Of a DNA stretch of 64,000 nucleotides, positions 20,562-21,239 are shown one piece after another. The notes below the pieces were generated by a model. It was not told the origin of the DNA, did no database searches, and saw nothing but the letters and a program-made list of their open reading frames with translations. Origin of the DNA: a bacterium (GTDB lineage: Bacteria; Verrucomicrobiota; Verrucomicrobiia; Verrucomicrobiales; Akkermansiaceae); assembly GCA_018222765.1 (NCBI GenBank), contig JAAEZT010000003.1, positions 1 through 64,000 on the forward strand. The letters are read 5' to 3'. Numbering within the stretch: the stretch's first letter is position 1; each line of letters starts with the position of its first letter. Both the position numbers and the translations under genes were made by a program.

Positions 20562-21239
20562 ATGAAACACCTCATCGCTCTCTCACTCGCGCTCTGCTCG
20601 ATCGCCGGGGCCTTTGACATTCCCAAAGGATCGTACCACCTCGGGCAACTCGAAGCCGCCGCCAAAAAAGCCGCCAAGGCAAAGCAACCCATCGCCTTCG
20701 TCATCGCCAAAAAATCAATGATCGCCACATGAGTGGCCTGCCCAGGAGCCGTCAGTGTGTCGGCTAGCAAAGCAGTTCTTGGATTCTCCCAAAGTGTCGT
20801 CGTTGATACCGGCGAAAAGTTTGCCCTCCCCGGGCTCGTAAAAGACGCCTACGAGAGGGGCGGATCATCCATCCCCATCGTCATCTTCACCGACCCCGGC
20901 ATGACCCAGATCTATGGATCCTATAATCATCCCGCAATGAAGAGCCAGCAATACGGAACCATCTTCAAAGACGCCCGCGCCAAGATTCGCAAATCCATCC
21001 AGGAAGGAACCTTCGCCCTCGGCGACGGCAACGAACCAAAAATCGTCAGAGTCGACGGCAGTGAGGTCGAAGAATGGACCAGCTCGAAAGGCACTGCGAT
21101 CAAAGCCAGACTTGTCGGCATCGAGAACGACGAAGTCTATCTCTTCGAAACCGACAAAGGCGCCAAGATCCGCGCCACCGCGGCCCAGCTTTCCAAAGAA
21201 AGCGTCGCCAAAGCGAGGAAGGCAGCCGGCGTAAATTGA
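20562..21239 (+). CDS. Candidate exported selenoprotein: thioredoxin-like domain with U-V-A-C motif plus C-terminal SHD1-like domain (225 aa including Sec57)
   Basis: ATG at 20562 opens MKHLIALSLALCSIAGAFDIPKGSYHLGQLEAAAKKAAKAKQPIAFVIAKKSMIAT, then in-frame TGA (20730-20732), then VACPGAVSVSASKAVLGFSQSVVVDTGEKFALPGLV... to 21239; (20730-20562)/3 = 56 exactly. C-terminus EEWTSSKGTAIKARLVGIENDEVYLFETDKGAKIRATAAQLSKES resembles SHD1. Confidence 0.82.
20747..20765 (+). promoter_or_regulatory. Candidate bacterial SECIS hairpin (AGCCG-UCAGUGUGU-CGGCU)
   Basis: 5-bp stem (optionally extended by C-G past a U-U mismatch, loop AGUGU) with GU in the apical loop, +22 to +26 nt after the UGA. Confidence 0.55.

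Follow-up and report, generated by a model that had tools for sequence, protein, structure and literature searches.

A putative bacterial SECIS element in a predicted thioredoxin-fold/SHD1 selenoprotein gene family of the Verrucomicrobiota

Introduction

A short hairpin at positions 20747-20765 (+ strand) follows an in-frame UGA codon in the 64,000-nucleotide stretch of Akkermansiaceae DNA analyzed here, which we call the window. Does this hairpin direct the insertion of selenocysteine (Sec), or is it a by-product of the coding sequence in which it lies? The comparison of homologous genes indicates that it is very probably a bacterial SECIS (bSECIS) serving Sec insertion at UGA 57 of a putative exported thioredoxin-fold UxxC/SHD1 oxidoreductase. 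This assignment was decided by comparison and not by the folding of a single sequence, and it is strongly supported because the UGA is conserved, the same residue is Cys in relatives that lack Sec, changes in the stem are compensated, and the full Sec machinery is present.

Results and Discussion

The gene and its product

Read through its in-frame UGA, the gene at 20562-21239 (+ strand) encodes a 225-residue thioredoxin-like/SHD1 protein and ends at a second UGA. A plain list of open reading frames begins the gene at 20733, directly past the UGA of codon 57 (20730-20732, +). The product has a predicted secretion signal, a thioredoxin-like UxxC domain and an SHD1-like domain. A probable signal peptide, MKHLIALSLALCSIAGAF, is visible in the translation of 20562-20615 (+), and homologs have similar hydrophobic N-termini; on this basis the protein is probably exported. 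The conserved UGA/Cys alignment column places U57 in a UVAC motif, in which the resolving cysteine, C60 (20739-20741, +), completes the UxxC. U/C57, C60 and Pro105 (20874-20876, +) are all invariant in a 45-member alignment.

The AlphaFold model of the protein (pLDDT 89.7) contains a thioredoxin-like core and a C-terminal SHD1-like domain. The features expected of a thioredoxin-like fold are present, namely a beta-alpha-beta core, a CxxC-type motif at the start of a helix (U57 immediately precedes a helix starting at residue 61) and a conserved proline before a later strand. That proline, Pro105, stands before strand 106-110 in the model and would correspond to the cis-proline position of thioredoxin folds. 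The PDB matches of the model are mostly thioredoxin-like, with modest scores. No Pfam model scores above its cut-off for the protein itself, and relatives match thioredoxin-like and SHD1 models. The SHD1-like domain (21063-21227, +) was located by a Pfam SHD1 match below the cut-off (E 0.048, compared with values down to 1.1e-8 in relatives) and by a structural match of the C-terminal domain to the SHD1 domain of Sla1 (2hbp; 59 columns, rmsd 1.7).

The hairpin as a single sequence

The sequence of the hairpin is AGCCGTCAGTGTGTCGGCT, with the arms arranged as AGCCG-UCAGUGUGU-CGGCU. It lies +15 to +33 after the UGA, as originally predicted, and its identification rests on its fold, on compensatory changes and on a constraint on synonymous codons. 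The stem runs from the pair A20747-U20765 to G20751-C20761 and is followed by a U20752-U20760 mismatch and a C20753-G20759 pair. This inner C-G pair, proposed from the sequence by the original prediction, occurs together with the AGCCG/CGGCU stem in the minimum-energy fold. The proposed five-nucleotide AGUGU loop (20754-20758, +) is indeed closed by the C-G pair, although in this member of the family a further A-U pair in the fold of 20747-20765 leaves a GUG triloop. We predict that this loop is the likely SelB contact.

The hairpin has the general properties of a bSECIS. Such elements lie within the coding sequence with the loop 16-37 nt from the UGA, and the distance is 21 nt here and 18 or 21 nt in homologs. 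The upper stem, expected to have 4-16 bp and a loop of 3-9 nt, consists of 5 bp, a mismatch and 1-2 bp more, with a loop of 3-5 nt. The G expected at loop position 1 or 2, as a rule with G or U after it, is part of the AGU described below, and the free energy of the 19-mer, -7.5 kcal/mol, equals the accepted upper limit (-8.6 kcal/mol is calculated for 27 nt and -12.8 for 43 nt).

By itself, as a single sequence, the hairpin proves nothing. The fold of a 46-nt segment is no more stable than those of dinucleotide shuffles (z -0.10; 82 of 200 shuffles were equally good), and the generic bSECIS rules were satisfied after 926 of 3000 random codons (about 31%) from the long open reading frames of the window, a frequency that depends on the published limits as coded in our analysis. 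Neither shuffle folding nor the generic filter discriminates, and both were rejected as evidence. The prediction was to fall if comparable hairpins proved equally common after ordinary codons; given these two results, generic hairpins are indeed that common, but the specific conserved hairpin is not. The motif CAGUNNG at the family spacing with at least five of seven flanking pairs was found after none of 17,648 ordinary codons and after the UGA in 51 of the 52 homologs that bear the motif. The hairpin matched no Rfam SECIS family at either curated or relaxed thresholds.

Conservation and covariation among homologs

We searched 337 genomes of the order for homologs. A UGA occupies the identical column in 55 genuine homologs from 46 genomes, and the frame downstream of it is conserved as protein. 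All 12 same-genus relatives have exactly one in-frame UGA in the gene, as do relatives in many other genera. The active site takes three main forms among the UGA homologs: UVAC/UVDC, UPTC and UGPC. A few homologs are unusual. Two have two in-frame UGAs near the active site (L069, G023:C31, and L091, G276:C25; UGNUGP and ULSGSUGS) and possibly represent either double-Sec forms or decay. Tandem paralogs at L040 (G164:C51), L073 (G222:C2) and L059 (G194:C180) consist of adjacent UGA copies or of a UGA copy and a Cys copy; at L059 the UGA copy adjoins a Cys copy with the motif CHHC. Another homolog (L090, G087:C58) reads UGPA, with Sec retained and the resolving Cys gone.

A five-base AGU loop closed by a C-G pair (CAGU..G) follows the UGA in 52 of the 55 homologs. 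The remaining three have no CAGU motif, and by eye they may form hairpins with loops UGUGA, CGUGA and CGGAGA. The AGU is invariant in the 52, in part by selection, because the CAGU motif served as the anchor of the hairpin alignment; the stem pairs were not selected. Comparative folding of the UGA-interrupted Trx-SHD1 genes, the check proposed along with the original prediction, supported the bSECIS reading: the sequence of the stem varies while compensation maintains the pairing. Among 41 distinct hairpins, six of the seven pairs have changed on both sides, a number reached in 4 of 500 shuffles, and there are 45 double-change cells compared with 16.5 in shuffles, none of 500 reaching 45. Structures slid by 1-3 columns fail this covariation test. 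RNAalifold independently proposed five of the seven pairs. The comparison of pairing at the same positions in Cys homologs comprised 14 sequences.

Codon usage gives a second view of the same region. The 13 same-genus genes, whose proteins are 49-96% identical, share 59 invariant residues with degenerate codons, and the codon is fixed only at 57, 63, 64, 65, 67, 70 and 71. Four of these frozen codons fall within the hairpin (Fisher p 0.0005). Codons 70-71 (AAA GCA), also frozen within the genus, are 3' of it; the GCA (20772-20774) and the UGC of Cys60 are complementary and might form a lower stem, which is absent in some genera.

The selenocysteine machinery and its distribution

The genome from which the window comes encodes a tRNA-Sec with a UCA anticodon, SelA, SelB (647 residues) and SelD. 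The SelD gene (L178, G000:C60:58831-59760) itself has an in-frame UGA, in CGGUASK (a CGGUxxK motif), followed by the hairpin ACGCA[GGUCC]UGCGU with its loop 32 nt from the UGA. This putative selenoprotein gene and its hairpin serve as an internal positive control.

SelB was found in 41 of the 46 genomes with the UGA form of the gene and in none of the 13 genomes having only the Cys form (Fisher p 2e-9). Four of the five UGA-form genomes without a SelB match have a tRNA-Sec confirmed by ARAGORN, which was used because tRNA-Ser and tRNA-Leu score 47-50 bits in tRNA-Sec searches, making the Rfam cut-off unreliable. In the fifth, G139, which is 79% complete, neither SelB nor tRNA-Sec was detected. 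The best tRNA-Sec matches in the Cys-only genomes, where checked, were tRNA-Ser or tRNA-Leu.

A scan of the genome with a covariance model of the family turned up this exact hairpin in no other gene. Its six other matches had no UGA at the family spacing in a plausible gene and were rejected as further selenoproteins. Nothing was found in the plasmid records searched.

Alternative explanations

The hairpin could have arisen from coding alone, from the peptide GAVSVSA and codon bias, with the UGA read in some other way or not at all. Hairpins of equal stability are common in this sequence, which favors such an origin. Nevertheless, we consider it very improbable. Within the genus the codons of the hairpin are frozen while other invariant residues switch codon, and both arms of the stem change yet the pairing persists. 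Of the synonymous ways to encode this peptide, only 0.15% produce the motif together with six or more pairs. The loop serine is encoded by AGT in all 52 motif-bearing hairpins, and AGT makes up 16% of the serine codons of the window.

The other alternatives concern the UGA rather than the hairpin. The assembly that contains the window is a draft in 87 contigs, and the UGA might be a sequencing error, a premature stop or the mark of a pseudogene, so that only fragments would be made. The recurrence of the identical UGA in so many homologous genes, with a protein-conserved frame beyond it, makes this the least probable of the explanations considered. Since the frame is open once the UGA is read through, the codon might instead specify an ordinary amino acid by a change of code, a suppressor tRNA or programmed read-through. 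This is also highly unlikely: UGA terminates the same gene, the genome has tRNA-Sec(UCA), SelA, SelB and SelD, and the relatives without Sec have Cys in this column.

Proposed function of the hairpin

Insertion of Sec at UGA 57 would proceed as follows. In the mRNA the hairpin lies 14 nt past the Sec UGA, with the loop 21 nt past it. SelB, with GTP and selenocysteyl-tRNA-Sec, would bind the loop, the key bases probably being the GU at positions 2-3 of the five-base loop closed by C-G. SelB would then deliver Sec at codon 57 ahead of release factor 2. No such hairpin follows the terminal UGA within the gene, and termination would occur there. The product would probably act in the cell envelope, reducing or isomerizing disulfides as a thiol-disulfide oxidoreductase.

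A second UGA gene in the window and the shared loop

The original prediction had compared the hairpin with that of another candidate in the window, suggesting that AGU was an element shared by two unrelated coding contexts. This gene, the first candidate (3360-4064, - strand), encodes a secreted redoxin/TlpA-like-SHD1 protein with an in-frame UGA at codon 62 (GUGPC). Its bSECIS-like hairpin, CCAUCU[AGUUG]AGAUGG (3839-3855, -), has the loop 29 nt past the UGA at 3881-3879 and contains the AGUUG loop that had been noted. The contexts are not wholly unrelated, both proteins being secreted, of thioredoxin fold and equipped with a C-terminal SHD1-like domain. A UGA is present at the codon-62 site in 13 related loci as well, and Cys forms occur elsewhere. 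These observations support the prediction that this is also a selenoprotein gene, with a hairpin of the form CCAUCU[NGUNN]AGAUGG.

The loops of the first candidate's family are AGUUG, CGUGA, GGUCA, GGUUC and GGUCG, on a stem that is mostly CAUCU/AGAUG. Loop positions 2-3 are always GU in this family, and the A is variable. The proposal of a shared AGU is half right: AGU is invariant in the 52 motif-bearing hairpins, but it was rejected as an element common to all of the UGA genes because the A is missing in these relatives and in the GGUCC loop of SelD. With the GU kept and the A variable, the shared signal is better described as a five-base NGUNN loop, in line with the bSECIS consensus of the literature (PMC13188914). 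The verrucomicrobial SelB may have co-evolved with a lineage-specific C-AGUNY-G loop, near-constant order-wide in the family of the 20562-21239 gene, and still accept a looser NGUNN at other spacings, as in SelD and redoxin-SHD1. A single SelB would then serve two classes of SECIS, an idea that we regard as speculative and rather unlikely.

Significance and comparison with known systems

The 20562-21239 gene appears to represent a previously undescribed selenoprotein family, and its bSECIS is of the normal type. NCBIfam release 20 has no family matching the protein or two of its UGA relatives up to an E value of 1. The 119-family selenoprotein inventory of 2026 (PMC13188914) contains no such family and does not mention Verrucomicrobia. 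By title and abstract, we found no paper on selenocysteine together with SHD1, with Akkermansiaceae, or with Verrucomicrobiota and SelB in a search whose scope took in few subscription papers and preprints. The finding would add an exported thioredoxin-SHD1 selenoprotein family from the Verrucomicrobiota. Standard annotation would probably begin these genes downstream of the UGA or treat them as broken. With the 41 distinct compensating hairpins, covariation can readily be used to test which bases of the SECIS are important to SelB.

Like known bacterial SECIS elements (the bSECISearch consensus, as given in PMC13188914, with E. coli fdhF as the type case), the hairpin is inside the coding sequence directly 3' of the Sec UGA. 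Compared with bSECIS elements generally (PMC13188914), the CAGUNNG of this family is more strongly conserved, across an order, and the element is outside the Rfam families. SelD in this genome (TIGR00476, UxxK) is likewise a UGA gene with a five-base NGUNN loop on a stem, but it differs in the longer distance from UGA to loop (32 nt versus 21), in the stem and in the protein encoded. The 20562-21239 protein shares the thioredoxin fold, and the occurrence of Cys forms in species without Sec, with the known thioredoxin-like selenoproteins, namely Trx, the TlpA/redoxin-like proteins and Trx7/PDZ (NF041199). It has the UxxC motif in common with Trx and the TlpA/redoxin-like proteins, NF041199 being listed as CxxU. 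Unlike all three, it has a C-terminal SHD1-like domain.
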